Assembly (NCBI GenBank): GCA_011620505.1
Contig: WOZA01000024.1
Span: 1-32,522 of the forward strand
Direction of reading: 5' to 3'
DNA length: 32,522 bases
Source: Anaerolineaceae bacterium
Lineage (GTDB): Bacteria > Chloroflexota > Anaerolineae > Anaerolineales > Anaerolineaceae
The position numbers were made by a program, and so were the translations under genes. Shown one piece after another: positions 1,371 to 30,416 of this stretch. Position 1 is the stretch's first letter, and each line of letters opens with the position of its first letter. The notes under the pieces were generated by a model. The model saw nothing but the letters and a program-made list of their open reading frames with translations, did not search any database and was not told the origin of the DNA.

Positions 1371-1387
1371 AATATAAAAAGGAGAAA

Positions 1388-3442: not shown

Positions 3443-3472
3443 TTCATCGTCCTTTCGACATTTTCTACTTCT

Positions 3473-3503: not shown

Positions 3504-3605
3504 TGCTTGTTTCTTGAGGATAGGTAAAACATGGTTTTCTATCCAGCTGGGGCTCCACGCATATATCCATCAGACAAAATGTTAATATCCTTCTATCAAA
3601 TAATT

Positions 3606-3633: not shown

Positions 3634-3659
3634 AGTTATTCAAATAACAAGGAGTGAAT

Positions 3660-5594: not shown

Positions 5595-5613
5595 AAGATC
5601 CTTTTGAGATGAA

Positions 5614-5649
5614 AAGAGCCTGTTCGTTTTTTGAACGGGCTCTTTTTTT
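5614..5649 (+). terminator. Rho-independent terminator of dnaK
   Basis: A stem AGAGCCTGTTC / GAACGGGCTCT with one G-T wobble is closed by a T-rich loop and followed by seven T residues. It begins 20 nt after the dnaK stop. Confidence 0.9.
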
Positions 5650-5696
5650 GACCCAATTGGGGTTGGTGTTCTCATGCCTGCAGTGCAGGAAGCGAC

Positions 5697-5723
5697 TTGA
5701 TGGAGGTCCCCATACATTATAAT
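5697..5723 (+). promoter_or_regulatory. Leaderless promoter of sbcD
   Basis: TATAAT (5718-5723) lies exactly six bases before the ATG at 5730, so transcription should start at or next to the start codon. TTGATG at 5697-5702 is a possible -35 with a short 15-bp spacer. No ribosome binding site can fit. Confidence 0.65.
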
Positions 5724-5729
5724 TAGCCC

Positions 5730-6962: not shown

Positions 6963-7017
6963 GGCTATTCCCAGAATTTAAGTCCGACCTAAGTTATAAG
7001 GGCAATCCGGTCATATT

Positions 7018-7731
7018 TTACGGCGTCCACTCATCGTGGATAATTGCTGACAGGTAATAAGCACCGTCCCCGCTTTGCTGGAAACCCAGGCGCAGCGATT
7101 GCCAGTCCAGGTAGCCATAGGCTTCTGTTCCCGGTTGGAAATATTCAACGTAATGCCCATCCGGGTAAACCTCGGCAAAGTTATCGATGGTGTTGCTGGC
7201 TTTTCGCGAGGGATCCAGCAAGAGCTCCCACTCCTGAGCAGGGGTTTGGCTGGTGACGTACTCAGGCCAATATTTCACAACGGTAAGGTTTATGTCCATT
7301 CCGCTGCCCGCCTGCACACCCCAGTGGTAGATTTCCTGATCGCTTCCGAATGCAGCCACCTGTTCTCTGGTGAAGACCAGGTCCTTGTCCCCGTTGATAT
7401 AGCCATATGGAGAGATCCGCACGCCAAGTTCGGGGTGGATGAAAGCCGCCAGCGCGGCAAAATCTTGACTCTGTAGGAGCGGCAGGATTTTGGCCGCCAG
7501 ACCTTCAAAAGTATCTTTAACGGGCTCCAGCGGGCAACTCGTGCTTTCAAGGCTGGCTATTTGGGTTGAAAGCGCATTATTTTGCTCCTGAGCGGCCAAC
7601 AGTTGGTCTGAAAGCAATTGGTTTTGCTGCCTGAGTTGCTCAAGCTCGGTACTTTCGCTCGGGGCAGCCACCACGCAGCCTGTCAACATCAGAATGAATA
7701 CGATCAAAAAGGAAAAGAGTTTCTTGTTCAT
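7018..7731 (-). CDS. Coiled-coil lipoprotein of unknown function
   Basis: I do not recognise this family. A lipoprotein signal ends in LTGC (Cys19). Residues about 28-65 form a Gln/Leu-rich coiled coil (LEQLRQQNQLLSDQLLAAQEQ). From about residue 72 a globular domain resembles small secreted proteins of the NTF2-like type, with IHPELGVRISPYGY and a Tyr/Trp-rich core. That comparison is impressionistic. The start follows GGAGG at good spacing. It lies 132 nt downstream of folP on the same strand but has its own promoter candidate, so it is probably a separate unit. Confidence 0.7.
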   Translation of the reverse strand: MNKKLFSFLIVFILMLTGCVVAAPSESTELEQLRQQNQLLSDQLLAAQEQNNALSTQIASLESTSCPLEPVKDTFEGLAAKILPLLQSQDFAALAAFIHPELGVRISPYGYINGDKDLVFTREQVAAFGSDQEIYHWGVQAGSGMDINLTVVKYWPEYVTSQTPAQEWELLLDPSRKASNTIDNFAEVYPDGHYVEYFQPGTEAYGYLDWQSLRLGFQQSGDGAYYLSAIIHDEWTP

Positions 7732-7763
7732 GGTTCCTCCGGATTGGGCGCAGAATTACACCT

Positions 7764-7791
7764 ATTGTACTTAAGACGGAATCTCGGGCAA
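7764..7791 (-). promoter_or_regulatory. Promoter of the coiled-coil lipoprotein gene
   Basis: Minus-strand TTGCCC, a 16-bp spacer and TACAAT lie about 33 nt upstream of the start codon. Confidence 0.5.
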
Positions 7792-7863
7792 AATGTTCCA
7801 AGACAGCCGGACTGAAAACCTATGAAACAAAGCCTTCTGTTTCTACTTTTGCACGGTTTGATC

Positions 7864-8733
7864 TTATGGCAGTTCGCTGAAGCGGATCGCATCCAGCATG
7901 CGTGCCAGGCGAACGGTCTCCCTTACGTCGTGCACCCGCAGAATGTCAGCGCCGTGCAGCACGCCCCAGGCGTTCGCGGCCAGGCTGCCCTCCAGGCGTT
8001 CGCCTTGCGGCAAATTGAGCGTGTGCCCAATAAAACCTTTGCGAGAAACGCCCAGCAGGATCGGGAAGCCCAGTTCGCACAGCTCGTCAATATGTTTGAG
8101 CAGGAATAGGTTTTGCTCGATGGTCTTACCAAAACCGATCCCGGGGTCGAGGATGATTTTGTCTGGGCTTACGCCGGCATCAATAGCCGACTTAGCCGCC
8201 TCTGCCAGCCAATTCCGCACCTCGGTGACGATGTCGTCATACCTCACGCCCTCATAGCGCCCGCCGAGCTCGCTGGTGACTGCCTGTGCGCCTTGCGTGC
8301 GATTGTGCATCAGGATTGCGGTCGCACCTGCCTCGGCTACCGTACCTGCCATGGCTGGGTCATACCGAAAGGCCCAGATGTCATTGATGATGTGCGCGCC
8401 TTCTGCCAGGCAGACCCGGGCGGTTTCAGCTTTGTAGGTATCAATCGAGAGGATGACGTTCGGCATCTCCTCGCGTAAGGCTCTCACCACTGGCAACATC
8501 CGGCTCAGTTCCTCATCCACACTGATTGCTGTTGCGCCAGGGCGAGTGGATTCCGCGCCCAGGTCGAGAATATCACAGCCATCCTGGATGAAATGCTCTG
8601 CCTGCAGCAGTGCCGTGCGGACGTAGTCACGTTCTCTGAGCAGTCCATCGCCTGAGAAGCTATCCGGGGTGAGGTTGATGATGCCCATGATGTAGGTTTT
8701 TTTGCCGAGTTCTGGCAGCAGTTCATTTTTCAT
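7864..8733 (-). CDS. folP: Dihydropteroate synthase
   Basis: Condenses 6-hydroxymethyl-7,8-dihydropterin pyrophosphate with p-aminobenzoate in folate synthesis (cytoplasm). The TIM-barrel signatures are intact: IMGIINLTPDSFSGDG near the N-terminus, DILDLGAESTRPGA, LSIDTYKAETA, ILDPGIGFGKT and GVSRKGFIG, which cover the pterin and pyrophosphate sites. The 289-residue length is normal. The track start is a GTG that overlaps the GAGGTG ribosome binding site; the ATG two codons later is preferred. Only 7 nt separate it from the LysM lipoprotein gene upstream, so the two are co-transcribed, although no functional link is evident. Other folate genes are not nearby. Confidence 0.95.
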   Translation of the reverse strand: MKNELLPELGKKTYIMGIINLTPDSFSGDGLLRERDYVRTALLQAEHFIQDGCDILDLGAESTRPGATAISVDEELSRMLPVVRALREEMPNVILSIDTYKAETARVCLAEGAHIINDIWAFRYDPAMAGTVAEAGATAILMHNRTQGAQAVTSELGGRYEGVRYDDIVTEVRNWLAEAAKSAIDAGVSPDKIILDPGIGFGKTIEQNLFLLKHIDELCELGFPILLGVSRKGFIGHTLNLPQGERLEGSLAANAWGVLHGADILRVHDVRETVRLARMLDAIRFSELP

Positions 8734-16814: not shown

Positions 16815-17939
16815 CTAGAAGAGCAGCTTACCGCCCAGTACGCAGTGGCGGACCTCAAGCGTCTCAGCATCCAGCAGGGTAAGGTCAGCCCGTTTCCCTA
16901 TGGCGATGGAGCCGATTTCATCCTGCATACCCAACACCCGGGCTGGGTTTGCGGTGGTGGCGCGCAGCGCAGACTCGAGTGGAATGCCAAAGTTGATCAC
17001 CGCACGGCGGAAACATTCCGAAAGCGGAGTGGCACTGCCGGCAATGGTGCCGCTGGCGAGGGTGGCGAGGCCATCCTTCATGGTCACTTTTTGACCGCCC
17101 AACTCATATTCTCCATTTGGCATACCGCATGCCATCATGGCATCGCTAATCAGGCAGATACGATCTTCGCCAAAGATGCTGAATGCAACCCGGATGGCGG
17201 CAGGATGAACATGATGCCCGTCACTGATCAACTCCACGCTGCTGGCATAGTCAGCGGCTGCGCCAATGAGACCAGGAGCACGATGGTTGAAGGGGTTCAT
17301 GGCGTTATAGAGATGGGTGACGTGACTGGCGCCGCGGAAAAAGGCTTCTTTTGCCAGGTCATAATCGGCACTGGTGTGATGGAGGCTGACCACACAGATT
17401 TCGCTGGTGCGCGCGATGAAGTCCAGCGCGCCAGGCTTCTCTGGGGCGACGTCGTTGAGCCGGATGCGACCGCTGCAGGCATCATTGAGCTCAAGGAAGA
17501 AATCATAATCCGGGTCAATCAGGTTATTGGGGTCCATGGCGCCTTTTTTCTCAACGGAGGCAAATGGACCTTCGAGATTGATGCCGCGCATAACAGCTCC
17601 ATCTTCAATGGGGTTGTCCATAAACTCGCTCGCGACCCTGACCATGTTCAGTAGAACGGGTTTTTTCATCGCCATGGTGGTACCAAGGTAGCTGGTGACG
17701 CCAACAGATGCCAGGTAGCGGGCGATGTTCTCATGCGCTTCGCGGGTGCTGTCGCAGAAATCAGTGCCATATGCGCCGTGGATGTGAATATCAATAAATC
17801 CGGGAGCAACGATGCAGCCAGTGGCGTCCAGCACTTCCGACTGGCTATGAGGTTCGCTGATGCGGTCGAACTCAGTATAGACGTCCCCTTCACGCAGGGC
17901 GAAATCTTCGCAAAAAACAAGACCATCTTTAATTAGCAT
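16815..17939 (-). CDS. nagA: N-acetylglucosamine-6-phosphate deacetylase (copy 1)
   Basis: Removes acetate from GlcNAc-6-phosphate to give glucosamine-6-phosphate. This amidohydrolase shows PGFIDIHIHG (about residues 46-55), NLEGPF, the metal-ligand region VSLHHTSADY, THLYNAMNPF, SDGHHVHP and the catalytic-aspartate motif LISDAM, ending with the usual IGKRADLTLLD. The 374-residue length fits. GGTGAAAG precedes the ATG. It is divergent from the HAD/CutC pair and stands at the edge of the amino-sugar locus, where a second, more diverged NagA homologue lies on the other strand. This copy is the more canonical of the two. nagB (deaminase) is not in the window. Confidence 0.93.
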   Translation of the reverse strand: MLIKDGLVFCEDFALREGDVYTEFDRISEPHSQSEVLDATGCIVAPGFIDIHIHGAYGTDFCDSTREAHENIARYLASVGVTSYLGTTMAMKKPVLLNMVRVASEFMDNPIEDGAVMRGINLEGPFASVEKKGAMDPNNLIDPDYDFFLELNDACSGRIRLNDVAPEKPGALDFIARTSEICVVSLHHTSADYDLAKEAFFRGASHVTHLYNAMNPFNHRAPGLIGAAADYASSVELISDGHHVHPAAIRVAFSIFGEDRICLISDAMMACGMPNGEYELGGQKVTMKDGLATLASGTIAGSATPLSECFRRAVINFGIPLESALRATTANPARVLGMQDEIGSIAIGKRADLTLLDAETLEVRHCVLGGKLLF

Positions 17940-18032: not shown

Positions 18033-18815
18033 ATGATAAAAGCGGTATTCTGTGATGTGGACAATACCTTAACCAGCCCCATAACGCGCACCATCCCAAT
18101 CAGTGCTCTTGAAGCCATTCAGAAGGCGCGCAAAAATGGGGTTAAGGTGTTCGTCGCAACCGGCCGGCAAACCCGCGCCTATGAAGAAGGCAAGATATTG
18201 CAGGGCATCGCGTTGGATGGCTATGTGGCGGTCAATGGGCAGCTTTGTTACTTGCCGGATGGGACCATTATTCATAAGGCTGTACTTGATCCGCGGGATG
18301 TGGCCGTTATCTTGCGGCTGGCTCAGGAACTGAACTTTGCCTGCTGCCTGATTGAAGGAGATAAGATCTATCTGACGGGGATTGATGAAAACGTCCGTTC
18401 TTTCCATGAAATGATCCACATTCCATATCCGATGGTCACCTCGGCAGACGGGGCGGAAAGTCGCGATGTGCTTTCCATTGCGCCTTACATCAACTATGCG
18501 ACCCAAGCATTGATCACTCCCCACTTGAAGAGCAGTGAAATTGTGCGTTTTAACCCCTTTAACTGTGACGTGATCCCGCGCAAAGGGGGAAAGGACGTGG
18601 GCATGCAGGCTATGCTGGATTACTTTGAAGTGCCGATCGAGCAGACAATGGCTATTGGGGATGGGCAGAACGATATCAACATGTTGAAGGCGGCTGGGGT
18701 CGGGGTGGCGATTGGGAAGTGCAGCCCGGAAGTGATGGCTGCGGCGGATTATCACGCGCCTGAAGCTGATGAAGATGGCATCTGGCATACGTTCAAAAAG
18801 TTTGGGATCATCTAA
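18033..18815 (+). CDS. Cof-type HAD family sugar phosphatase
   Basis: A HAD-IIB hydrolase, probably dephosphorylating a sugar or similar phosphate in the cytoplasm. Motif I is DVDNT (residues 8-12; the usual DxDGT with Gly replaced by Asn, nucleophile Asp8). Motif II/III surroundings are VFVATGRQ and the conserved Lys in RKGGKDVGM. Motif IV is IGDGQNDINML. The cap is of the C2 type, as in Cof proteins. The 260-residue length is normal. It precedes cutC by 12 nt in one unit. A possible role is to relieve accumulation of sugar phosphate made by the PTS nearby; this is inferred from context. Confidence 0.85.
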   Translation: MIKAVFCDVDNTLTSPITRTIPISALEAIQKARKNGVKVFVATGRQTRAYEEGKILQGIALDGYVAVNGQLCYLPDGTIIHKAVLDPRDVAVILRLAQELNFACCLIEGDKIYLTGIDENVRSFHEMIHIPYPMVTSADGAESRDVLSIAPYINYATQALITPHLKSSEIVRFNPFNCDVIPRKGGKDVGMQAMLDYFEVPIEQTMAIGDGQNDINMLKAAGVGVAIGKCSPEVMAAADYHAPEADEDGIWHTFKKFGII

Positions 18816-18827
18816 TTGGAGATCGGA

Positions 18828-19580
18828 ATGGAAAAAGTGGTCATTGAAGTTTGCTGCGGTTCGGTGGATGATGTGGTGCGGGCAGCAGAAGCTGGAGCGG
18901 ACCGGGTGGAATTGAACTCGGCGCTGTTTGTTGGCGGACTGACTCCTTCGATTGGAGCGGTACTGGAAGCCAAACTCAGGGTGGACATCCCCGTCATCAG
19001 CATGATACGTCCGCGCGCAGGAGGGTTCTGTTACACCGACCTGGAGTTCGAGACCATGCTGCGGGATACGCGCGAACTGGCGAAGGCAGGCACGGATGGT
19101 TTTGCGGTTGGTTTTCTAACTACTGAAGGATGGTTGGATGAAGAACGCTGCAAGATTTGGGTAGATGCAGCGGGAGAGAGGGAATTGGTGTTCCACCGCG
19201 CCTTTGATATTATGAAAAATGAACCGGAAGAAGTGCTGCCGCGGCTGGCTGAGCTCGGTTTTAAACGGGTTCTGACCAGTGGGAGGGAACCTTCTGCACC
19301 GGCAGGAGCAGAAATGATCAAACGTTGTGTGCAAGTGGGGGCGGTGGAAGTCCTGGCGGGGGGCGGCGTTCGGGCGGAAAATGTGCAGGAGTTAATTCAA
19401 AACACTGGCTGCCGGCAAGTACACTTCACCTGCCACACGAGGCAAAGCGATCCATCCGTGCGGGGAGCCAAATTATCCTTTGGGTTGCCAAATATGCCAG
19501 AAGATGATAAGTTCGATCTAATGGATATTAAAAGGTTAACCGGCTTGATCAGGTTGATCCGCACTTTACCCACATCCTAA
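18828..19580 (+). CDS. cutC: CutC family TIM-barrel protein
   Basis: A CutC homologue of 250 residues. Family features are EVCCGSVDDVVRAAEAGADRVELNS at the N-terminus, GGLTPSIGAV, the ISMIRPRAGGFCY strand, FHRAFDIM, VLTSGREPSA, and the AGGGVRAENV loop. The ATG at 18828 is preferred over the upstream TTG because GGAG precedes it by six bases. CutC was named for copper homeostasis, but the E. coli phenotype was later traced to the MicL small RNA in the cutC 3' region, so the protein's biochemical role is open. Here it sits between a sugar phosphatase and a PTS amino-sugar run, which points to a metabolic role. Confidence 0.9.
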   Translation: MEKVVIEVCCGSVDDVVRAAEAGADRVELNSALFVGGLTPSIGAVLEAKLRVDIPVISMIRPRAGGFCYTDLEFETMLRDTRELAKAGTDGFAVGFLTTEGWLDEERCKIWVDAAGERELVFHRAFDIMKNEPEEVLPRLAELGFKRVLTSGREPSAPAGAEMIKRCVQVGAVEVLAGGGVRAENVQELIQNTGCRQVHFTCHTRQSDPSVRGAKLSFGLPNMPEDDKFDLMDIKRLTGLIRLIRTLPTS

Positions 19581-19613
19581 GGGTCGACAGAGCACGGGGG
19601 CAGTGACTTTTTT

Positions 19614-19674
19614 ACCAAAATAGACCACTTGTATTGACACTGGTGATTTTTGTATTATTATAGAATTGCCAGTG
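19614..19674 (+). promoter_or_regulatory. Promoter with GntR/NagR-like operator candidates
   Basis: TTGACA (19634-19639) is followed by an AT-rich stretch with overlapping -10 candidates (ATTATA at 17 bp, TATAGA at 19 bp). Just upstream, the 16-mer at 19614-19629 matches 11 of 16 positions of the DasR/NagR-type dre consensus ACTGGTCTAGACCACT, with the right half TAGACCACT complete. A further inverted repeat CACTGG (19638-19643) / CCAGTG (19669-19674) flanks the -10. The layout suits repression of the downstream SIS-PTS run. No GntR regulator gene lies in the window. Confidence 0.5.
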
Positions 19675-19759
19675 AGACAGAGTCTTTATCAACTTGCTGG
19701 AACCATTATTGCAATCAGTCCGAACTGTTTTAACAATAAAATACTACAGAGGTGTACGG

Positions 19760-20464
19760 ATGGACAATGAAGTGTTCGAGATGGCATATAAGCTCATCGG
19801 CAAACTCCAGGAAACTCAGGGAGAAAACATTCTCGCGGCTGCGCGCTGCATAGCAGACACGTTCGAACATGGCGGCATTATACAAGCTTTTGGATCCGGG
19901 CATTCTTATGCCGGGGCAATTGAGCTTTGTGGGCGGGCTGGTGGCTACGTACCCTCGAAAGTGATCAAAGATCCAGCTGGTGGTATGTATGAATCCATCC
20001 AGGGTGTGGGTGAAATCCTGATGAAGAAAGTTGAGATCTTGAAGGAGGATGTGGTTTTCATCATTTCCAACTCAGGTCGCAATCCTTTACCAATTGAGAT
20101 TGCCTTACAGGCAAAACAAAGGGGCGCAAAAGTAGTTGCTCTGACTTCCGTCAGCGCAAGTTCCAAACTTAGTTCAAAGCATCAGTCCGGCAAACGCTTG
20201 TTTGAGGTGGCAGATGTAGTCATTGACAATCAGGTTCCTGATGGCGATGCCAGCATCCAGCTTGAAGGGCTCGATACCGCTATTTGTGGTATGTCTTCGA
20301 TTGTCACCTCGGTTGCGCTGCAGGCTGTCGTGCTTGAATCGGCGAAGATGCTCCTCGCAAGGGGTATCACGCCGCCATTCTTTAAGTCACAGAATATCGA
20401 TGGAGGTGAAGAATATAACGACGCATTGCTCAAGAAGTACTTTAATCGGATCAATCATATGTAG
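19760..20464 (+). CDS. SIS-domain sugar-phosphate protein, UPF0309-like (copy 1)
   Basis: A 234-residue SIS (sugar isomerase) domain protein of the UPF0309 type. The phosphosugar-binding signature is AFGSGHSYAGAIELCGRAGG (about 43-62). The second half is VFIISNSGRNPLPIEIALQAKQRGAKVVALT, with the Ser-rich phosphate site SNSGRN. Members bind or isomerise phosphosugars, or cleave them as MurQ does, but substrates are mostly unknown. The start is moved 66 nt downstream of the track start, to the ATG after AGAGGTG; this also places it sensibly below the promoter. It is the first gene of the PTS run. Confidence 0.85.
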   Translation: MDNEVFEMAYKLIGKLQETQGENILAAARCIADTFEHGGIIQAFGSGHSYAGAIELCGRAGGYVPSKVIKDPAGGMYESIQGVGEILMKKVEILKEDVVFIISNSGRNPLPIEIALQAKQRGAKVVALTSVSASSKLSSKHQSGKRLFEVADVVIDNQVPDGDASIQLEGLDTAICGMSSIVTSVALQAVVLESAKMLLARGITPPFFKSQNIDGGEEYNDALLKKYFNRINHM

Positions 20465-20471
20465 TTAATCA

Positions 20472-20485
20472 GGAGGGAAACCTCC
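20472..20485 (+). other. GNRA-tetraloop hairpin before PTS IIC
   Basis: GGAGG-GAAA-CCTCC forms a perfect 5-bp stem closed by a GNRA tetraloop, eight bases after the SIS stop. It hides a Shine-Dalgarno-like GGAGG; the true AAAGGAG of IIC lies further on. It may stabilise or process the message. Confidence 0.45.
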
Positions 20486-20512
20486 AAAACTAATGAAAGG
20501 AGTTTGACCTAA

Positions 20513-21253
20513 ATGAGTACGTTTCTTCTCGCTTTATTCTTAGCAATCTTTACCGGCTTAATGATTGTGTTTGCGTCATTGGCCATGGGCGGCATCTACA
20601 ATCCGCTCATTTTCGGCGTCGTCACCGGTCTTTTGGTCGGCGATGTTCGGCTGGGTCTTGAGGTTGGTGCAATGTGCGCCCTCTATGACATTGGCTTCTA
20701 TACCTACGGAGGCGCGACAACGCCTGACTATAACGTAGGGGCAATGTTTGGCGTGGTCGTCGCGAAACAGAGTGGTGACGTCAACCAGGGTATCATTATC
20801 GGTACCGTTGTTGCCCTGCTCATGTCGTGGTTCGACATTCTTGGCCGCGGTGTTACAACCGTCTTCCAGCACGGTGGCGACAGAGCCTTGGCCAACAGAG
20901 ACATCAAAGCCTTCGAACGCTGGCATCTGCTCGGCACCCAGGGTTGGTTCTGGAGCCGTTTCATCCCCGTGTTTATCGGCATGATGCTGATTGACAATTA
21001 TCAGGTGATTTCCAACTTTATCAACAATTACGCCTGGATCAAGGATGGTCTGGCTGTAATTGGGAAGGCTCTCCCAGCGGTCGGCTTTGCACTGCTGCTT
21101 TCATATATGGATATCAAGAACTTCTGGCCATTTATGTTAATCGGCTATGCACTCTATGCTTTTATGGGCGTTCCTACGCTCGGTCTGGCCATTATCGGTA
21201 TTGCCCTCGGCTATCTCTTCACCAACTTTATGAAAAAAGAGGAGGCAAGGTAA
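20513..21253 (+). CDS. PTS mannose/sorbose-family transporter subunit IIC
   Basis: Integral membrane channel subunit of a mannose-family phosphotransferase system, which imports and phosphorylates sugars with IID and the IIAB domains. The 246-residue protein is mostly hydrophobic helices. Family features include FASLAMGGIYNPLIFGVVTGLLVGDVRLGLEVGA near the N-terminus, where IIC-Man proteins carry a similar Gly-rich re-entrant segment, YGGATTPDYNVGAMFGV, and a C-terminus rich in membrane helices ending in KKEEAR. AAAGGAG precedes the ATG. IID follows after one base. Family members move mannose, fructose, sorbose, GlcNAc or GalNAc, and the exact sugar cannot be read from sequence. Confidence 0.9.
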   Translation: MSTFLLALFLAIFTGLMIVFASLAMGGIYNPLIFGVVTGLLVGDVRLGLEVGAMCALYDIGFYTYGGATTPDYNVGAMFGVVVAKQSGDVNQGIIIGTVVALLMSWFDILGRGVTTVFQHGGDRALANRDIKAFERWHLLGTQGWFWSRFIPVFIGMMLIDNYQVISNFINNYAWIKDGLAVIGKALPAVGFALLLSYMDIKNFWPFMLIGYALYAFMGVPTLGLAIIGIALGYLFTNFMKKEEAR

Positions 21254-21254
21254 G

Positions 21255-22082
21255 ATGGCACGCACAAATGCTAAACTCTCTGAACAGGCTTTAAAGAAAG
21301 CCGCCAACCGTCACAACTGGGCTCTGCAGTGGTGCTGGAACTACGAACGTATGCAGGCTTCCGGCTTTGCATATGCCATGGTTCCGATCATGAAAGAGCT
21401 CTATGACACCAACGATGAGGTTTGCGAAAACCTCGAACGTCACATGCAGTTCTACAACTGCCATCCGGGCGGTTCAGCCGTGATTATGGGCGCAGCGGTT
21501 GCCCTTGAAGAAGGCTACGAAACTGACATGTCCAACAGCATCAAGGTTGCCTTGATGGGACCTCTGGCGAGCATTGGCGACACAATCCAGGCTGTGCTGG
21601 TGAAACCGATTGCCTACATCATCGCTGCTGGAATGGCAGCCGAAGGCAGCTTCCTCTCCCTGCCCGTGATCATCCTTCCACTTCTGGCTCTCTTCCTGGC
21701 GAGATGGCCGCTCTTCAAATGGGGTTACAAACGCTCTGTTGCCATCCTCGAAGATATCGAGGGCAACACTGACTTCAACACCATGCGCAAGGCTGCTCAA
21801 ATCCTCGGGTTGACGGTTGTTGGTGGATTTGTGCCAAGCATGATTGGCCTGACACTGAAGTACACTTACTCCCAAACTTTAACCGATCCAGCGACCGGAC
21901 AGGATGTGGTAAAGACCGTCGCTCTGCAAGATACGCTTGACGGCATCCTGCCGAAACTGCTGCCAATCGCGCTGGTTGCATTCTGCTACTGGCTGATCAA
22001 GAGAAAGGTCAATCCCGTTCGGGTTATCGCAATCGTTGCGGTGATTGCTTTTGTCCTGGGCGCGCTCGGCGTTTTGGGCTAA
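21255..22082 (+). CDS. PTS mannose/sorbose-family transporter subunit IID
   Basis: Membrane subunit that pairs with IIC. The N-terminal soluble part shows the IID pattern QWCWNYERMQASGFAYAM and RHMQFYNCHP (most members have FFNTHP), then GAAVALEEGY and MGPLASIGDTIQAVLVKP, which is highly characteristic of IID. The C-terminal half has several membrane helices. The 275-residue length is typical. It starts one base after IIC. No domain fusion is seen. Confidence 0.93.
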   Translation: MARTNAKLSEQALKKAANRHNWALQWCWNYERMQASGFAYAMVPIMKELYDTNDEVCENLERHMQFYNCHPGGSAVIMGAAVALEEGYETDMSNSIKVALMGPLASIGDTIQAVLVKPIAYIIAAGMAAEGSFLSLPVIILPLLALFLARWPLFKWGYKRSVAILEDIEGNTDFNTMRKAAQILGLTVVGGFVPSMIGLTLKYTYSQTLTDPATGQDVVKTVALQDTLDGILPKLLPIALVAFCYWLIKRKVNPVRVIAIVAVIAFVLGALGVLG

Positions 22083-22097
22083 AATTTAGTACAATTG

Positions 22098-22131
22098 TTG
22101 GTGGCGGAGAAAATCCCTTCTCCGCCACCAA
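22098..22131 (+). other. Perfect 14-bp hairpin between IID and IIB
   Basis: TTGGTGGCGGAGAA and its exact complement flank a six-base loop. No T-tract follows directly, although TTTTTT occurs about 13 nt later. It probably tunes the IIB share of the operon message by partial termination or RNA protection. Confidence 0.65.
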
Positions 22132-22164
22132 ACTATACGAGGGATTTTTTGGAGAGAGCAAAAT

Positions 22165-22650
22165 ATGATTAAGCATCTTCGCATTGATAACCGTTTGATC
22201 CACGGACAGGTCGCCGTTACATGGATGCGCCGTATTAACGCGGATGCGATTGCAGTTGTTAACGATGACGTTGCCAAAGATCGCATTCAAAAGATGGCGC
22301 TGCCCCTTGCCGCAAGAGACGCGAAAGTCTTGGTGCTGTCGCATCAAGAGCTGCAAGACTACGTCAAAGAGCACCCGGATGAATCGCTTTTTGTAATCGC
22401 CAAATCCCCGATGGATGCCCTGCGCATCCTGGAGAGTGGGCTTGAAGTTGGCGAAGTCAATGTGGGGAATGCCGCCCCGATCGCCGGAACCAAGTATGTC
22501 ATGGTGGATAAATCAATCGCTGCCACCAAAGAAGACGCGGAAGTGTATCGTAAGATCGCGGAACTACGGGGCGGCAAACTGATGACCCAGACGGTCTCCA
22601 CTTATCAACCTCAGGACTTTCTCCAACTGCTGCGCAAAGCCGGCCTTTAG
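22165..22650 (+). CDS. PTS mannose/sorbose-family subunit IIB
   Basis: Cytoplasmic subunit that accepts phosphate from IIA and passes it to the sugar held by IIC/IID. The active-site signature RIDNRLIHGQVAVTW lies at residues 6-20, with phosphorylated His13. The 161-residue length matches a stand-alone IIB. GGAGAGAG precedes the ATG. A IIA domain is neither fused to it nor present elsewhere in the window, so it must come from another locus. Confidence 0.93.
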   Translation: MIKHLRIDNRLIHGQVAVTWMRRINADAIAVVNDDVAKDRIQKMALPLAARDAKVLVLSHQELQDYVKEHPDESLFVIAKSPMDALRILESGLEVGEVNVGNAAPIAGTKYVMVDKSIAATKEDAEVYRKIAELRGGKLMTQTVSTYQPQDFLQLLRKAGL

Positions 22651-22692
22651 GCTCCCGCGGCAGCATTCGAACGAATGCCCGTTTAAATACGA

Positions 22693-22735
22693 AAATAGTG
22701 GTGGTCACTTCGAGGATTCGGGGTGACCACTATTT
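22693..22735 (+). other. Bulged hairpin after PTS IIB
   Basis: AAATAGTGG-TGG-TCAC pairs with GTGACCACTATTT (one 3-nt bulge). Only a weak T-rich tail follows. It may be a partial terminator or an RNA-stabilising element between IIB and the next gene. Confidence 0.5.
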
Positions 22736-22767
22736 ATAGACGCAACAAGTGAATAGGAAACCCTGCC

Positions 22768-23403
22768 ATGCAATTGAAAATCGCCAAAATTATTAATAGC
22801 CTGCTTATCGTTCTGACCGTAATTATCTTAGCGCTTGCGGGAGGCTATATCTTTGTATACAACCGCTACCCCGAATTTAGGACGACTTACTTAATTATTT
22901 TCGTGCTTGTTGCTATTGGATTGATGCTCTTTTTCAGATGGATGGAAGAGGGCTGGGACAAACGTGTCATTACCCGCATGGTCAAAGATGGTAAGGTCGC
23001 GTTGGCAAATATCAAACACTCGGAACGCGTGATGCGCATGCGCGACAGCACATTTACCAATTTCTGGCTGTATGAATTCGTGGCAGATTTGGTAACTCCC
23101 GATCTCGTAAACCTGAACGAAGTGAAATTCTGGGAAAAAATGAATGCGGACACCCAACAGATTCCCAACGGCTCCGTCTTTGTGACGTACGACCCCGAAA
23201 AGCCAACCCAAATCTTTGTTGTGCCAAATGTGTTGATCAGCCAGCTGCCCGAGCTGATGCCCGTGGTGCGTAAGATTGAAGCGAATGCGTCCATTCGGTA
23301 CCTGGACGCGTATTACAACAAAGGCATGGTTATCAAAAGCATGAAAGACTCGCTGGCGGAGCAGAGCCAGGCGGTGGAAGAAAAGAAAAAGAAGGAAGGC
23401 TGA
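22768..23403 (+). CDS. Two-helix membrane protein of unknown function in the PTS operon
   Basis: I do not recognise this family. Two membrane helices occur at about residues 9-31 (SLLIVLTVIILALAGGYIFVY) and 38-57 (TTYLIIFVLVAIGLMLFF). A soluble domain of about 140 residues follows, with WEKMNADTQQIPNGSVFVTYDPEKPTQIFVVPN in its core, ending in a charged Glu/Lys tail. After the second helix a positively charged RWMEEGWDKR segment suggests a cytoplasmic C-terminal domain. AGGAAA precedes the ATG. It ends one base before the Gfo/Idh gene, so it belongs to the operon. It is not a IIA subunit as far as I can see. Confidence 0.7.
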   Translation: MQLKIAKIINSLLIVLTVIILALAGGYIFVYNRYPEFRTTYLIIFVLVAIGLMLFFRWMEEGWDKRVITRMVKDGKVALANIKHSERVMRMRDSTFTNFWLYEFVADLVTPDLVNLNEVKFWEKMNADTQQIPNGSVFVTYDPEKPTQIFVVPNVLISQLPELMPVVRKIEANASIRYLDAYYNKGMVIKSMKDSLAEQSQAVEEKKKKEG

Positions 23404-23404
23404 G

Positions 23405-24400
23405 ATGATGAGGATTGGGACAATAGGAACCGGGATTATCGTTGATGGTTTTTTTGATGCGGTCAGCAAGACCGACGACGCAGAAGTGGTTGTGATCTAC
23501 TCGCGCAATGAAGAAACCGCGCAGGCTTTTGCAGCCAAGCACAACCTGACAAAATGGCATACAGACCGGGATGCTTTTCTGAATGACCCTGAGATCGACG
23601 TCGTTTATGTAGCCTCACCCAATTCGCTCCATTACCAATGGACGCTTGATGCCCTGAAGGCAGGCAAAGGGGTCATTTGCGAAAAACCCTTTGTTTCGAC
23701 CCGCGCGGAGTGTGAGACCCTGCGTAATCTTGCTCACGAAAAAGGCTTGTTCCTGGTGGAGGCTATCACTGTCCCGCATCTGCCCAACTTCCAATTGATC
23801 CGCGACCATTTGGATAAAATCGCTCCGGTCAGGTTGGTGCAGCTCAACTTTTCGCAGTACTCAAGCAAACACAAAGCTTTTTTGGAAGGCAAGAATCCGA
23901 ACATCTTCAACCCTGCCTTTGCTGGCGGCGCCTTGATGGATATCAACTACTACAACTTGCGCTTCATGCTTGATCTGTTCGGCGAGCCTGAGAATGTGCG
24001 CTATTTTGCCAATCTTGCGCACAATGGCATCGACACATCCGGTGTGCTGCTGATGACCTATCCGGGTTTTCTGGCAGAGGCTGTAGGGGCAAAGGACAGC
24101 CGCAGCGAGAATATGGTGCAAATCCAGGGCGAAAAGGGTTACATCAAAGTGCCCAAGGAAAGCAGCCGCTGCATCTCGTTCACGGTAGTCACCCAGAATG
24201 GCGAAGAAACATTCAATGAGCAGGCAGATGATAACGTGCTTGTCTATGAGATGCGGGAATTCGCTGAAATGTACCAAACTAACGACCTGGCCAAACGAGA
24301 TGAATTGTTGGAAATGACCTGCCGTGGCATGAAGTGGCTTGAGATAGCCCGCAAGGACGGCGGAGTATATTTTGAAGGAGAAACGCGATATGTGGATTAG
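23405..24400 (+). CDS. Gfo/Idh/MocA family oxidoreductase
   Basis: NAD(P)-dependent sugar or polyol dehydrogenase of 331 residues. The Rossmann fold is at the N-terminus (RIGTIGTGIIVDGFF), followed by VYVASPNSLHYQWTLDALKAGKGVICEKPF, whose EKP lysine is catalytic in this family. The second domain contains GGALMDINYYNLRFMLDLFG. Substrates vary widely (inositols, sugar acids, glycosides via 3-keto intermediates, amino sugars). It begins one base after the membrane protein and overlaps the next gene by 11 nt, showing tight co-expression. A role in modifying an unusual amino sugar is inferred from context. Confidence 0.9.
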   Translation: MMRIGTIGTGIIVDGFFDAVSKTDDAEVVVIYSRNEETAQAFAAKHNLTKWHTDRDAFLNDPEIDVVYVASPNSLHYQWTLDALKAGKGVICEKPFVSTRAECETLRNLAHEKGLFLVEAITVPHLPNFQLIRDHLDKIAPVRLVQLNFSQYSSKHKAFLEGKNPNIFNPAFAGGALMDINYYNLRFMLDLFGEPENVRYFANLAHNGIDTSGVLLMTYPGFLAEAVGAKDSRSENMVQIQGEKGYIKVPKESSRCISFTVVTQNGEETFNEQADDNVLVYEMREFAEMYQTNDLAKRDELLEMTCRGMKWLEIARKDGGVYFEGETRYVD

Positions 24401-25607
24401 ATCAACCCGGATTTACACTGAAGATGGTCTGTTGGACGGCTGGATGCGGATTGAAGAGGGGAAGATTATCCAATTTGGCAAGGGTGAAAAAGAAGGCGCG
24501 GTTGATTTTGGCGACCTGCGCATCATTCCCGGCATATTTGATACGCATATCCACGGCACCCAGGGCTATACCATGTGGGAGGAAGGCGAGAGTGGGGATA
24601 TTGATTTCCAGTTGGATGGCTTTTTGAAGGGTGTGGCGAGTGAGGGTGTGACGTTAGTTCTCCCAACGCTTTTTAGCGCTACCGGTGACGGCGAGGGCGC
24701 CCTGGAAGTACTGAAGAAAACCGCGAATCGAGTCGGCAAGCCGCAAAACGGCGCGAACGTGGCGGGTGTGCACTTTGAAGGCCCCTACTTGAACCGGGTC
24801 GGCGAGAAAGGCATCCGTCCGAAACCCCCCACGATCAATCTGGATTTTGTGCGTAAGGCGATCGAGGCTGGGAGCGGACATCTAAAACTGATGGGGTTGG
24901 CACCAGAACTGCCCCAGTCAGAAGAATTGGTCGACCTCCTGATAGAGCATGGCGTAATCGCCGCGTTTACCCACACGGATTGTAATTCAACCCAGGCATT
25001 TGCCGCTTTCGATCATGGCATTACCGTGGCGACGCATCTGTGCAACGTGATGACCGGAATTCACCACCGCGATGTGGGCGGGTTGGGGGCAGCGCTGCTG
25101 GATGAACGCGTTACCTGCGAGCTGATCTGCGACGGCTTGCACGTCTCTAATCCGATGATCGAGATTGTGATGCGTGCCAAGCCCCACGAAAAAATCATGC
25201 TGATTTCCGATTGCACCGGTTATTCCGGCGCGCCAACCGGTACCTATAGGGGCTTCCTGGGGCATTCAGGCGAAGTGATCGTGGACGATTTGGGCTTTGT
25301 CCGCGAAACAGGTGGGCGTCTGCGCGGGAGCAGTAAGCCGGTGCTCTATGGCATCTGGAACCTGGTGGAAAACGTCGGGCTTGAGATGGACGACGCCTTG
25401 AGGATGGCCTCACTCGTGCCTGCCCGAAAATATGGTTTTGGAGATAAAAAGGGTTCGCTGAAAATTGGCAAAGACGCTGATTTTGTGGTGATCAGTGATG
25501 ATTACAAAGCACTTGAAACTTACGTGGAGGGGCGCAAGGTCTTCGACCGTGCCAGTGAAGGAGATAAGATTTTTAACCAGCAAATGCTGGAGACTTTACT
25601 GAGGTGA
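24390..25607 (+). CDS. N-acetylglucosamine-6-phosphate deacetylase-like amidohydrolase (copy 2)
   Basis: A NagA-family amidohydrolase of 405 residues, more diverged than copy 1. Motifs are PGIFDTHIHGTQGY, HFEGPYLNRVGEKG, AAFTHTDCNSTQAF, THLCNVMTG (HLYNAM in canonical NagA), CDGLHV and LISDCTG, which retains the catalytic aspartate. The ATG at 24390 follows GAAGGAG and is preferred to the TTG in the track. It overlaps the Gfo/Idh stop by 11 nt and is followed by the ceramidase-like gene after two bases. The changes around the substrate pocket suggest a related but different N-acyl amino-sugar phosphate. Confidence 0.85.
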   Translation: MWIRSTRIYTEDGLLDGWMRIEEGKIIQFGKGEKEGAVDFGDLRIIPGIFDTHIHGTQGYTMWEEGESGDIDFQLDGFLKGVASEGVTLVLPTLFSATGDGEGALEVLKKTANRVGKPQNGANVAGVHFEGPYLNRVGEKGIRPKPPTINLDFVRKAIEAGSGHLKLMGLAPELPQSEELVDLLIEHGVIAAFTHTDCNSTQAFAAFDHGITVATHLCNVMTGIHHRDVGGLGAALLDERVTCELICDGLHVSNPMIEIVMRAKPHEKIMLISDCTGYSGAPTGTYRGFLGHSGEVIVDDLGFVRETGGRLRGSSKPVLYGIWNLVENVGLEMDDALRMASLVPARKYGFGDKKGSLKIGKDADFVVISDDYKALETYVEGRKVFDRASEGDKIFNQQMLETLLR

Positions 25608-25609
25608 AA

Positions 25610-26857
25610 ATGATCAAAGTAGCAACATCCACCCGCTATGTAACCCCGCAGGAACCCTGTTTTATGGGCGGCTACGGCATGCGCAGGCAGAAGTCTGAAG
25701 GCATCCTCGATGAGTTGAAATGCACTGCAGTACTCCTGGAGATCGATGGGTCGCCCATTGTGATGTGCGATGTGGAAATCCTGATGATCACATCGGAAAT
25801 CGTCACAGCAGTCAAAGAAAGACTATTGCGCGAGTATGGCATCCAGCCTGAAATGGTCACCATCGCTACCACCCACACCCATGCCGGCCCGGAGATCCGT
25901 TCCGAGCGATTGCCAATGTTTGATGAAGAAAGTGATGATAGCTTTTGGCGGCGATATCAGGACTTCTTGAAGGAAAGGATCTTTATCACCATCGCTGACT
26001 GTTTTGAAACTGAGCTGAGAGAAGCTGAGGCCTGGTATCGTACCGTGAAAATTGAGGGGTTGTATGGCAATCGGAATGGGATTGGCAAGCCCGAGGACAA
26101 AGATGTCACGTTGATCGTCTTCAAAAACGAAAAAGAGGTGTTGGCTGCAATTGTGAATATTGCCTGCCACCCGACCGTGTTGGGCGCCCAGAACCTGCAG
26201 ATCAGCAGTGACTTGCTGGGGTACATCAGCCGTGGTGTCAAAGAAAGACTGGGAGTGTATCCACTGATGATGCAAGGCGCTTCCGGGGATATGAGCAACC
26301 GCAACTACCGCCAGGGGCACGATGCACAAGAGCTGACCCGCACGGGTGAGGGCATTTTGGCACAGCTATTTGCCAGCCAGGAATTAGCCCCGCTCAGCCT
26401 GGACAAACCGGTGGTCGAACCTTACCACTGGGAAACCAGTTATCCAGTGGATAAAGAAGCTCTCAAAAAACTGCAGATGCAAATCAGGCAGCAAATGGCA
26501 GCCGAAGAAAATTACGACAAGCACAAGATCCTGCTTTCTTCGGATTATGCGATTGACCTCAAGTTGAAGAAAGAGGAAATTACCGCCAATTTTGATGCGG
26601 CAATTATCCGAATGGGAGATCTCGAAATCTGTAAGCAGCCCGGGGAAATGTTCTCGCGCTTTGGCATGAAGATCAAAGCCGCCAGCAAGGCAAAGCTCCC
26701 GCTCATCTGGGGTTATGCCGATGACTATGGCGGCTATCTTGCGGACGAGGGTGAGTATGGCAAGACCTACGAAAGCATCATGTCACCCATGCCAAAAGGC
26801 GCTTCGGAAGAAATTACTGATGACCTGGCCCGTTTAATGGCAGGAGAAACGGAGTAA
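25610..26857 (+). CDS. Neutral/alkaline ceramidase N-terminal-domain-like hydrolase
   Basis: Resembles the catalytic domain of neutral ceramidases, zinc amidases. It has no signal peptide, so it is cytoplasmic. It begins near GGYGMRRQKSEGILDELKCTAVLLE and carries the zinc-binding THTHAGPE (about residues 85-92), CHPTVLG and a later QGASGDMSNRN, where ceramidases have a Ser/His-rich catalytic pocket. The fatty-acid specific C-terminal domain of true ceramidases is absent (415 residues against about 650). The ATG follows GAGGTG; the track GTG overlaps it. Between a NagA homologue and a SIS protein it probably hydrolyses an amide on a sugar derivative rather than a ceramide. That is inference. 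Confidence 0.75.
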   Translation: MIKVATSTRYVTPQEPCFMGGYGMRRQKSEGILDELKCTAVLLEIDGSPIVMCDVEILMITSEIVTAVKERLLREYGIQPEMVTIATTHTHAGPEIRSERLPMFDEESDDSFWRRYQDFLKERIFITIADCFETELREAEAWYRTVKIEGLYGNRNGIGKPEDKDVTLIVFKNEKEVLAAIVNIACHPTVLGAQNLQISSDLLGYISRGVKERLGVYPLMMQGASGDMSNRNYRQGHDAQELTRTGEGILAQLFASQELAPLSLDKPVVEPYHWETSYPVDKEALKKLQMQIRQQMAAEENYDKHKILLSSDYAIDLKLKKEEITANFDAAIIRMGDLEICKQPGEMFSRFGMKIKAASKAKLPLIWGYADDYGGYLADEGEYGKTYESIMSPMPKGASEEITDDLARLMAGETE

Positions 26858-26859: not shown

Positions 26860-27591
26860 ATGAAATATTCAAATGAATACCTGGAACATTTGGAAGGAAT
26901 CCTTGAGAAGATCAAGGCGAATGAAGAGCAATACCGCGAAACTGCAGCCGCGATATTGGAACGAGTCAAGCAAGGAGGAATGATATTTCCCTTTGGCACC
27001 GGGCATGGGCATCTTCTGGCACTTGAGATGTTCTATCGCGCTGGCGGCATGGTGCGGGTTAATCCGATACTGACCGAAGAACTGATGCTGCACAAATCAG
27101 CCACAGGTTCCTCAGCTTTTGAACGCAGCGAAGGCAAGGCTGAGCCACTGCTGGAGGAATTCAAGGTCAGTGAAAAGGATGTGGTGATTGTGTTCTCGAA
27201 CAGCGGCATCAACCCGCTGACCATCGAGATGGCTTTGGGTGCAAAAGAACGCGGCGCTCTAACCGTAGCTCTGACCAATTTGAACCATTCACGTCCACTG
27301 CAGAGCCGCCACCATTCGGGATTGAAATTGTATGAGATTTGCGACATTGTGCTCGATAATTTTGGTGTCTTGGGCGATGCCTGCGTGAAGGTTGCTTCGG
27401 GGATCAAGATCGCGCCGACATCCACGGTCTCTGGAGCAGCGATTGTGCATACCCTGACTGCCATGATGGTTGAGCTGGCGGAGGCAGAGGGCTATGAACT
27501 CGAACTATACACTTCCGGCAACGTGCCCAATGGGCACGAACGCAACCTGGCGCTGATAGAAAAGTACAAAGGTGTTATTAAAAGCCTCTAA
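26860..27591 (+). CDS. SIS-domain sugar-phosphate protein, UPF0309-like (copy 2)
   Basis: Paralogous to the SIS gene at the head of the run. FPFGTGHGHLLALEMFYRAGG replaces its FGSGHSY phosphosugar signature, and VIVFSNSGINPLTIEMALGAKERGALTVALT matches its second half. It is 243 residues long. It starts two bases after the ceramidase-like gene with GGAG upstream. Substitution of the SIS active site (SGHS to TGHG) suggests a different substrate. A non-catalytic binding role is also possible. Confidence 0.85.
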   Translation: MKYSNEYLEHLEGILEKIKANEEQYRETAAAILERVKQGGMIFPFGTGHGHLLALEMFYRAGGMVRVNPILTEELMLHKSATGSSAFERSEGKAEPLLEEFKVSEKDVVIVFSNSGINPLTIEMALGAKERGALTVALTNLNHSRPLQSRHHSGLKLYEICDIVLDNFGVLGDACVKVASGIKIAPTSTVSGAAIVHTLTAMMVELAEAEGYELELYTSGNVPNGHERNLALIEKYKGVIKSL

Positions 27592-27625: not shown

Positions 27626-28480
27626 TTGAAGAGAGAATTCAATAAAGAGAATATCAAGTTAGCCGCTTTCGATCTGGATGGGACGATTCTGACCAAGAGT
27701 TACATTACCGAGGTGACCAAAGCTGCCATTACACGCCTGGCTGAAAGCGGGGTGAGGACGATCGTGGCGACCGGTCGGCACTTATTCCAATTACCCCCCG
27801 CGGTATTGGACATTTCCAGTTTCCAGATTGCCATTGGTTCCAACGGCGCGATGATTGGCAATATTCGCAGTCACGAACTTTACCATTTTGATGGTTTCGA
27901 TGTGGAAACCGCTTTGCGATTTCTGCGCTGGTTACCCACCGTGACCAATTCCTTCCACATCGCTTTTCAAGACGGTTCTGGCTACCTGATGCGAGAGGAT
28001 TACGAGCGGTTGCTCGATTTGCAGCCCAACGATGTGGAGAGGGAAAAATCAGCTCGGGAATACCAGCGGGTTTATACGATCCTTGATGACCTTGATCATG
28101 TCGAACAAACCATGAAGCCGGTGGCTAAGTTTGGTTTCAGGATGGCAAAAGAGGAAGACGTGCCTGCCGCGGTTCAGCTGGTGCGGCAAAATTTTGGGTT
28201 TGAAGCTGCCATCACGGATTATCAGACCATCGAGGTGACAAAAGCCGGCGTGACGAAAGCTTCCGGGTTAATACGTGTGTGTGATCACTATGGACTGAAG
28301 CCCGAAAATGTGATTGTCTTCGGCGACAGCGGTAACGATGTACCGGCGATGAGAATAGCCGGCTATGCCGTGGCGATGGGCGACGCCGCCCCAGATGTAA
28401 AAGCCGCGGCAGATGAAGTCACAGCAAGCATCCATGATGATGGCGTGGTCCTGGCGATTAATCGTTTATTTGACCTGTAA
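27626..28480 (+). CDS. Cof-type HAD family sugar phosphatase (copy 2)
   Basis: A HAD-IIB hydrolase with the canonical motif FDLDGTI (motif I), IVATGRH, and motif IV GDSGNDVPAM. The protein is 284 residues. The start is a TTG five bases after GGAAAGGAA; no ATG is as well placed. Unlike the first HAD protein it has standard DxDGT. It sits between SIS copy 2 and murQ, with only 9 nt to murQ. It may dephosphorylate an intermediate or prevent toxic build-up of phosphorylated sugars. Confidence 0.8.
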   Translation: MKREFNKENIKLAAFDLDGTILTKSYITEVTKAAITRLAESGVRTIVATGRHLFQLPPAVLDISSFQIAIGSNGAMIGNIRSHELYHFDGFDVETALRFLRWLPTVTNSFHIAFQDGSGYLMREDYERLLDLQPNDVEREKSAREYQRVYTILDDLDHVEQTMKPVAKFGFRMAKEEDVPAAVQLVRQNFGFEAAITDYQTIEVTKAGVTKASGLIRVCDHYGLKPENVIVFGDSGNDVPAMRIAGYAVAMGDAAPDVKAAADEVTASIHDDGVVLAINRLFDL

Positions 28481-28489: not shown

Positions 28490-29404
28490 ATGGCAGTTCA
28501 ACCCTCTGAAATTAGGAAATTGAAGACTGAACAGCGCAACCCTGCAACTCTGGATATTGACCTGCTTCCCACGCTGGCTATGGTGCGGATGCTGAACGAT
28601 CAAAACCGGGTGCTGGCTGACGCGGTGGACGAGCAGGCTGAACAGATAGCGAAAGCTATCGAGCTCATTACTGAACGCATGCAGCGCGGAGGACGCTTGA
28701 TCTATATTGGCGCAGGCACCAGCGGCAGACTTGGTGTGATGGATGCCGCTGAGATCCCGCCAACCTTTTCATACCCTCCCGAGGGAGTGGTTGGCTTGAT
28801 TGCTGGCGGTGACCTCGCCCTTCGTGGGGCAGTGGAACACGTTGAGGATGATCCCCTGGCAGCCGCTGAACAGCTAAAGGCTCTCGGTCTATACCAGAAC
28901 GATGTCGTGTGCGGCATCGCTGCCAGTGGGCGGACGCCCTATGTGATTGGCGGGTTGGATTACGCCAAGAGTGTTGGCGCGGGGACAATCAGCGTTGCGA
29001 ATAACAAGCACAGCGAAATTGGCAGACATGCGGATGTGGCGATCGAAGTTGAAACCGGACCGGAAGCGCTTTCAGGCTCAACCCGCCTGAAGGCTGGCAC
29101 CGCCCAGAAACTGGTGTTGAACCTGCTCTCAACAGGGACGATGATTCAGCAAGGCAAAACTTACAGCAACCTGATGGTGGACGTCAAAGCGACGAATGAG
29201 AAACTGCAGGCGCGCTGCCTGAACATCCTGCGGGAAATCTTCCCCGCGTTGGAAACCGAGCGCCTTGCGGAAGCCCTGGCACGTGCAAATGGCAGCGTGA
29301 AACTGGCGGCAGTCATTATCAAAACCGGGCTTCCAGTGGAGCAGGCGCGCGCTGAACTGGAACGGCACGACGGGCATCTGCGCCGCGTCTTTGGGGAGGC
29401 ATAA
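28490..29404 (+). CDS. murQ: N-acetylmuramic acid 6-phosphate etherase
   Basis: Cleaves the lactyl ether of MurNAc-6-phosphate to give GlcNAc-6-phosphate and D-lactate in peptidoglycan recycling. The SIS-type fold shows IYIGAGTSGRLGVMDAAEIPPTF (about 71-93; Glu88 aligns with the catalytic Glu of E. coli MurQ), the second acidic site in GAVEHVEDDP, GIAASGRTPYVIG, EALSGSTRLKAGTAQKLVLN and LMVDVKATNEKL. The 304-residue length is standard. AAAGGAG precedes the ATG. The dehydrogenase gene follows after one base. Together with NagA it supplies glucosamine-6-phosphate from muramic acid. It is the best-defined enzyme of the run. Confidence 0.96.
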   Translation: MAVQPSEIRKLKTEQRNPATLDIDLLPTLAMVRMLNDQNRVLADAVDEQAEQIAKAIELITERMQRGGRLIYIGAGTSGRLGVMDAAEIPPTFSYPPEGVVGLIAGGDLALRGAVEHVEDDPLAAAEQLKALGLYQNDVVCGIAASGRTPYVIGGLDYAKSVGAGTISVANNKHSEIGRHADVAIEVETGPEALSGSTRLKAGTAQKLVLNLLSTGTMIQQGKTYSNLMVDVKATNEKLQARCLNILREIFPALETERLAEALARANGSVKLAAVIIKTGLPVEQARAELERHDGHLRRVFGEA

Positions 29405-29405
29405 G

Positions 29406-30416
29406 ATGCTGGCGAGAACCGTCATCATTCCAGCCAAAGGACGAGCGGAAGTTGTGGAGGAAGAGCTCGATACCAGCCGTTTACAGCCCAACGAAGCCAT
29501 CATCCAGGCAGAAGCCAGCATGATTAGCGCCGGCACAGAACTCTCGCGCGTGTTCGAGATCAAGAAAGGCTTTAGCTACCCTGTGCGCCCGGGCTATTCG
29601 GCGGTGGGAAAAGTGCTGGCGAAGGGGGAGGGGCTGACCGACCTGCAGGTTGGGGACCGGGTGTTCTATACCGGACCGCACGCATCGATCTGCCGCTTCT
29701 CCCGCGGGAACCGTACCCAGGGTCCGATGATCTTTAAGTTGCCTGAGGGCATTAGCCCACAGGAAGGCTCGTTGATCACGCTGGCATTGGTGGCCATCAG
29801 CGGCGTGAACAGCGTGGAAGTCCGTTTGGGCGATCGGATAGGCGTGTTTGGCATGGGAATGATTGGGCTTTTGGCAGCACTGATGCTCAAGAAGCTTGGG
29901 GCAGAGGTGGTGGCAATTGACCCGGTGGTGGAGCGCTGTGCCCAGGCGCAGCAGATGGGCATTACACAGATCGTAGATTGCCCGGCGGAAGAGCAGCTGG
30001 CGCAGATCCAGGCGCGCTTTGGCGGGCTGGACGCGGCTGTGGACGTGACAGGCGCGGCACGAGCTATTGAGACGGCAGTTCTTTCTACCAAGAAATACGG
30101 GCAGGTGACGCTGCTGGGCACCCCTCGCGCAGCCTGCACCCTGGATGTGACCCCCATGCTGAATGCCATCCACATGCGCATGCTGCGCGTGACCGGGGCA
30201 TTCAACAGCCTGGAACCGGTGTTTGAGAGCGAAGGCATGCGCATGAACGTGGCGCGCAACTTTGAGACCGTTTGCGGCATGATCTTGAGCCGCGAACTGC
30301 CAGTTTCGTGGCTGATCAGCCATGTGATCAAGCCTGAGGAAGTGGAAAGAGCCTACCACGGCTTGATGTTCGAACCGGATCTGTACCACTGCGTGGTGAT
30401 TGACTGGAGCAAGTAG
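29406..30416 (+). CDS. Medium-chain zinc-type alcohol dehydrogenase-like protein
   Basis: An MDR-superfamily oxidoreductase of 336 residues. The NAD(P)-binding GVFGMGMIGLLAALMLKKLGAEVVAID is at about 150-175. The N-terminal catalytic domain carries MISAGTELSRVF, the GTE pattern of the bi-domain threonine-dehydrogenase-like subgroup, where a Ser stands in place of the usual zinc-binding Cys; the four-cysteine structural zinc cluster is also missing. The start is the ATG one base after murQ (GGGGAGG upstream), not the track start inside murQ. It is the last gene of the PTS run. The substrate is unknown, plausibly a hydroxylated sugar derivative. Confidence 0.85.
   Translation: MLARTVIIPAKGRAEVVEEELDTSRLQPNEAIIQAEASMISAGTELSRVFEIKKGFSYPVRPGYSAVGKVLAKGEGLTDLQVGDRVFYTGPHASICRFSRGNRTQGPMIFKLPEGISPQEGSLITLALVAISGVNSVEVRLGDRIGVFGMGMIGLLAALMLKKLGAEVVAIDPVVERCAQAQQMGITQIVDCPAEEQLAQIQARFGGLDAAVDVTGAARAIETAVLSTKKYGQVTLLGTPRAACTLDVTPMLNAIHMRMLRVTGAFNSLEPVFESEGMRMNVARNFETVCGMILSRELPVSWLISHVIKPEEVERAYHGLMFEPDLYHCVVIDWSK

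Follow-up and report, generated by a model that had tools for sequence, protein, structure and literature searches.

A cytosolic ceramidase-superfamily hydrolase in a mannose-family PTS operon of an Anaerolineaceae bacterium, and its possible role in amino-sugar catabolism

The operon

The window analysed here is a stretch of 32,522 nucleotides that forms contig 120 of a 1.78-Mb Anaerolineaceae MAG. All genes between positions 18033 and 31741 lie on the forward strand, and a second NagA-like protein (NagA2, 16815-17939, reverse strand) diverges upstream of them. The series begins with a HAD-IIB phosphatase (HAD1, 18033-18815), a CutC-family TIM-barrel protein (18816-19580) and SIS1 (19739-20464), a SIS protein of the UPF0309/PRK02947 or NagS family. 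These are followed by the IIC (20513-21253), IID (21255-22082) and IIB (22165-22650) components of a mannose-family PTS, by MemX (22768-23403), a 211-residue protein for which two membrane helices are predicted and which matches nothing in Pfam, by a Gfo/Idh/MocA-family oxidoreductase (23408-24400) and by NagA1 (24390-25607), a NagA-like amidohydrolase that is diverged enough to score 214.9 bits, below the nagA cut-off of 225.65. After the gene that is the subject of this report come SIS2 (26860-27591), a further member of the UPF0309/PRK02947 family, a second HAD-IIB phosphatase (HAD2, 27626-28480), MurQ (28490-29404), which scores over its equivalog cut-off, a zinc-type alcohol dehydrogenase-like protein (29391-30416) and HutI. 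The EIIA-man and EI proteins are encoded elsewhere in the host genome, and thus the PTS of the operon can plausibly work. A near-consensus sigma-70-like promoter, TTGACA-16-TATTAT, is found at 19634-19661 ahead of SIS1, where HAD1-CutC and the genes from SIS1 onward may therefore form separate transcripts, with the proviso that overall counts of the pattern do not exceed those in shuffled sequence.

The gene between NagA1 and SIS2, here called CDase, runs from an ATG at 25610 to a stop codon ending at 26857 on the forward strand, with an alternative GTG start two codons upstream, and encodes a protein of 415 residues. It is separated by only 2 bp from each of its neighbours, and its position between a NagA homologue and a SIS protein is as given in the first-pass annotation. 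Comparison with two relatives gives a dN/dS of about 0.10, and the gene is thus under purifying selection.

A ceramidase catalytic core

The assignment of CDase draws on PF04734, an alignment of metal ligands and structural modelling. The protein matches PF04734, the N-terminal part of neutral/alkaline ceramidases, with 50.6 bits against a gathering cut-off of 32.1, and is the sole member of that family found in the host genome. The reference structures are those of the Pseudomonas aeruginosa neutral ceramidase (PDB 2zws/2zxc) and human neutral ceramidase (4wgk). The zinc ligands of 2zws, which we take to be H97, H204, E411 and Y448, align with H89, H187, E346 and Y376 of CDase, and the remaining residues of the catalytic set, H99, R160, Y460 and E461, align with H91, R155, Y387 and E388. 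The zinc motif THTHAGPE had been noted earlier, with the caution that the ligands might be lost on careful alignment; the motif is present, and all four ligand positions are kept relative to the solved neutral ceramidases. Across 42 aligned sequences H89, H91, H187, E346, Y376, Y387 and E388 are invariant, and in a later set of 48 Y387 gives way to Phe in one sequence, from Enterococcus raffinosus.

The relationship extends over approximately the full catalytic part, where a profile built from 23 diverged homologues, 22 of which match PF04734 themselves, finds 2zws at 5.5e-44 and 4wgk at 5.2e-39. An AlphaFold model computed from an alignment of eight close sequences (pLDDT 71, pTM 0.76, with low values in the active-site loops) was compared by Foldseek with solved structures and returned 4wgk, 2zws and 2zxc at 1e-14 to 1e-15, with a probability of 1.00 and TM scores of 0.58-0.63; the confident structural matches of this model are ceramidases only. 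CDase and the three reference structures have in common the fold family, the H/H/E/Y zinc ligands, the second His of THTHxGP, the substrate Arg and the Tyr-Glu motif.

The differences are equally marked. The neutral ceramidases act on lipids, are secreted or bound to membranes, and have 646-688 residues including a C-terminal domain, whereas CDase is a protein of 415 residues, apparently cytosolic, encoded in a sugar operon. Its N-terminus is not hydrophobic, the best 9-residue Kyte-Doolittle mean within the first 40 residues being 0.56, and no clear signal peptide is present in the family members checked. There is no match in CDase to the C-terminal immunoglobulin-like ceramidase domain and the chain stops after the catalytic part, such that the earlier description of a protein lacking both the signal peptide and the C-terminal domain is borne out. 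The stretch between the second and third ligands is also shorter by about 50 residues (159 against 207 in 2zws), and the alignment shows CDase to be without the 2zws insert that contains NNPFLSALGGLLTGVPP in this region. Judged from its sequence, CDase is a zinc hydrolase that belongs to the ceramidase superfamily and resides in the cytosol. That it acts as a cytoplasmic ceramidase on lipids would accord with its superfamily membership and its complete catalytic set, but the reading is barely credible for a protein that is without a secretion signal, the C-terminal domain and the 2zws insert, that scores 28.2 bits against the threshold of 1200 for the NCBI neutral ceramidase equivalog NF041649, and that is encoded in a sugar-import operon.

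Proteins of the same kind appear in databases as the family 'neutral/alkaline non-lysosomal ceramidase N-terminal domain-containing protein', defined by PF04734 with no C-terminal domain, which is found in Clostridia, Chloroflexota, Alphaproteobacteria and haloarchaea, often within sugar clusters. The clade of the window differs from the rest of this family in being linked to a PTS and in carrying a lysine, K160. No relative was found in viral contigs.

The operon in close relatives and in Clostridia

The locus is found in six other Anaerolineaceae/Chloroflexota MAGs, with CDase proteins that are 79-97% identical. At one related locus (L003, 11246-12250) about 1 kb, holding small ORFs of unassigned kind, is inserted between CDase and SIS2 and is bordered by a 46-bp stretch that nearly copies the 3' end of CDase (91%), which would suit an insertion or a tandem duplication; at another (L006, 7882-8777) Gfo/Idh matches as two overlapping pieces in different frames, reflecting either a frameshift or misassembly.

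A version of the operon is also present in a Clostridia MAG, that of an uncultured Angelakisella (L008), with the order HAD1-CutC-SIS1-IIC-IID-IIA-IIB-MemX-Gfo-CDase and a GntR-type regulator on the opposite strand after CDase. The operon proteins encoded in positions 1-8400 of this contig are 47-78% identical to those of 18033-26857 in the window, with values of 55% for CDase, 77% for SIS1 and 75% for IIC, and identities as high as these between phyla suggest that the PTS operon as a whole has been transferred horizontally. NagA1, SIS2 and MurQ do not occur after CDase on the Clostridia contig, the left end of which stops at HAD1, and NagA1 and SIS2 may lie past the contig end. MemX is conserved with the operon in two phyla, at 54% identity in the Clostridia MAG; it has no match in plasmids or in a further 393 genomes from the order to which that MAG belongs, and the exact operon is therefore rare. 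Proteins of the CutC family usually go by the name of copper homeostasis proteins; the one described here is likewise found in the sugar PTS operon of both Chloroflexota and Clostridia, a placement that fits a sugar-metabolic rather than a copper-related role.

MurQ lies three genes downstream of CDase in every Anaerolineaceae copy that extends that far. This arrangement favours a muropeptide amidase, which would free the peptide from a MurNAc(-6P)-peptide ahead of MurQ and NagA, as do the MurQ-like nature of SIS2 and the fact that MurNAc recycling requires an etherase, NagA and an amidase. Such a role is nevertheless improbable given that (i) MurQ is absent, within the stretches read, from the CDase clusters of Clostridia, of a distant Chloroflexota genome of another class (G279) and of Alphaproteobacteria, (ii) the conserved core of the operon stops at CDase in the Clostridia MAG, and (iii) mannose-family PTS IICD is not known to handle muropeptides.

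Phylogenetically, the window clade groups with the proteins of the Clostridia MAG, E. raffinosus, G279 and one ABC-linked member (L073) with support of 99/95. All PTS-linked members carry K160, five residues past the substrate Arg (R155); at this position Gly is found in 33 of the 43 other sequences, and Glu in the alignment of the ABC-linked L073. K160 is a candidate phosphate contact on this residue pattern. It was rejected as proof of a phosphate pocket, as it has a single origin in one clade and the model is poor at this position. The E. raffinosus megaplasmid (L115, 10814-13239) has a tandem pair of CDase-like genes that overlap and are each annotated as hypothetical, with an amidohydrolase gene on one side and a beta-glucoside PTS gene on the other.

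Distant homologues and their gene neighbourhoods

Adjacency to NagA1 and SIS2 in the window alone was set aside as evidence until distant clusters bore the linkage out. The relatives found in similar gene company are diverged, at 22-31% identity. In G279 a homologue of about 29% identity lies in the order IIC-IID-IIB-CDase-SIS-NagA-Gfo, and a second homologue of that genome in SIS-NagA-CDase. On alphaproteobacterial plasmids of Nitratireductor, Ponticoccus and Microvirga the genes run from a NagB-like protein through a SIS protein of PRK02947, NagA and CDase to an ABC sugar importer. Among 35 genomes with a homologue, with kinship left uncorrected, there are 5 pairs with NagA within about 1 kb of CDase against 0.34 expected, 9 pairs within 8 kb against 1.4 expected, and 5 pairs with a PRK02947 SIS gene within 3 kb against 0.11 expected. 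In the tree, NagA-linked members fall in at least four separate clades. The linkage of CDase with amino-sugar genes consequently exceeds chance and reaches past close kin.

Many other relatives adjoin genes for FGGY and ROK kinases, DegT aminotransferases, GH88 and fucose-isomerase-like proteins, and the Nitratireductor clusters also hold uxuA and a mannitol dehydrogenase-family gene. With sugar neighbours as varied as these, the wider family extends past amino sugars, and CDase could be a sugar-specific zinc hydrolase that takes a sugar or a sugar acid as substrate and cuts in it an amide other than the N-acyl bond, an ester or a lactone, as part of a cytosolic branch that radiated into many sugar pathways. 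The presence of NagA, which already supplies a deacetylase, points the same way. This remains a rather unlikely reading, as the PTS-linked and alphaproteobacterial clades are tied to NagA and NagS-family SIS proteins, the known substrates of which are 2-acetamido sugars, and as every amidase catalytic residue is kept.

The SIS step

In Streptomyces, NagS (SCO4393, PDB 9eol) is a GlcNAc-6P dehydratase the product of which is deacetylated by NagA, and the NagS homologues tested from outside Streptomycetaceae reportedly have no or almost no activity towards GlcNAc-6P (PMC12680351). The window resembles this system in having two NagS-family proteins, SIS1 and SIS2, and a NagA-family protein, NagA1, but the Streptomyces pathway, unlike the window operon, contains no ceramidase-like step. 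In alignment SIS2 keeps the residues needed in NagS, namely H53, R64, S91, E94, D179 and N228, while SIS1 has Gly in place of S91. That SIS1 and SIS2 might simply be GlcNAc-6P dehydratases was considered but rejected on account of the lack, or near lack, of activity of distant homologues, even though the SIS2 residues are kept. The same low activity means that the substrate here is probably an amino-sugar phosphate that is related to GlcNAc-6P but different from it.

Proposed function

What, then, might a ceramidase-type catalytic head be doing in a sugar operon? One answer is a glycosylamide hydrolase that would stand in for glycosylasparaginase and act on N-linked conjugates of a sugar with an amino acid, for instance GlcNAc-Asn, with or without a 6-phosphate. 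A substrate of this type holds both an amide and a HexNAc, and gut bacteria reportedly use GlcNAc-Asn (PMC6960285); as a reading based on analogy, for an operon that has no aspartate- or asparagine-handling gene, it is highly improbable.

The preferred reading, to which we attach a probability of roughly 0.52, is that CDase works in the cytosol as a zinc enzyme that hydrolyses the N-acyl bond of an N-acyl amino sugar, or of a derivative, after import. Since diverged homologues from further classes and phyla recurrently lie among amino-sugar genes, the best candidate for the substrate is an N-acyl amino sugar, which is probably phosphorylated since a PTS brings the sugar in. The mannose-type PTS of the operon would import and phosphorylate an N-acylated amino sugar, or a derivative, from which CDase would remove the N-acyl group, be it acetyl or some other small acyl. 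The NagA homologue and the NagS/MurQ-like SIS protein would act in the same series of reactions, while the Gfo/Idh, CutC and HAD proteins would take other steps. Within this proposal we infer the amide as the scissile bond, the sugar-phosphate substrate (from the PTS linkage and K160) and the order of the steps. The chemistry offers a possible rationale: ceramide is a 2-acylamino-1,3-diol, and the same group would be presented by C1-C2-C3 of a 2-acylamino sugar, such that the catalytic head of a ceramidase could be reused once the lipid pocket was lost.

There are also points against an N-acyl amino-sugar hydrolase. With NagA already in the operon, a further deacylase has to act on another acyl group, on another sugar or at another step, and the varied neighbours of the wider family do not tie it to N-acetyl sugars. 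The first-pass annotation had suggested cleavage of an amide on a phosphorylated sugar, with an N-acyl amino sugar and a muropeptide as examples, and of these the former gains from the recurrent neighbourhood and the latter loses from the restriction of MurQ, within the stretches read, to the Anaerolineaceae copies. In the literature searched, no biochemistry was found for any cytosolic member of the CDase family, nor any report tying ceramidase-like proteins to NagA, SIS or CutC clusters.

Implications

Databases call such proteins ceramidases, which implies lipid metabolism, whereas their gene neighbourhoods speak of sugar metabolism. Tentatively, a cytosolic branch of the ceramidase fold, spread over at least three bacterial phyla, may have been re-tooled from lipids to amino sugars, to serve as the missing third enzyme alongside a NagS-type SIS lyase and NagA in an undescribed route that has both PTS and ABC forms. 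If this were true, many annotations would mislead, and the conserved SIS-NagA-CDase cassette would mark an uncharacterised route of amino-sugar catabolism, with CDase offering a case, open to experiment, in which the fold of a lipid amidase has been put to use on carbohydrates.
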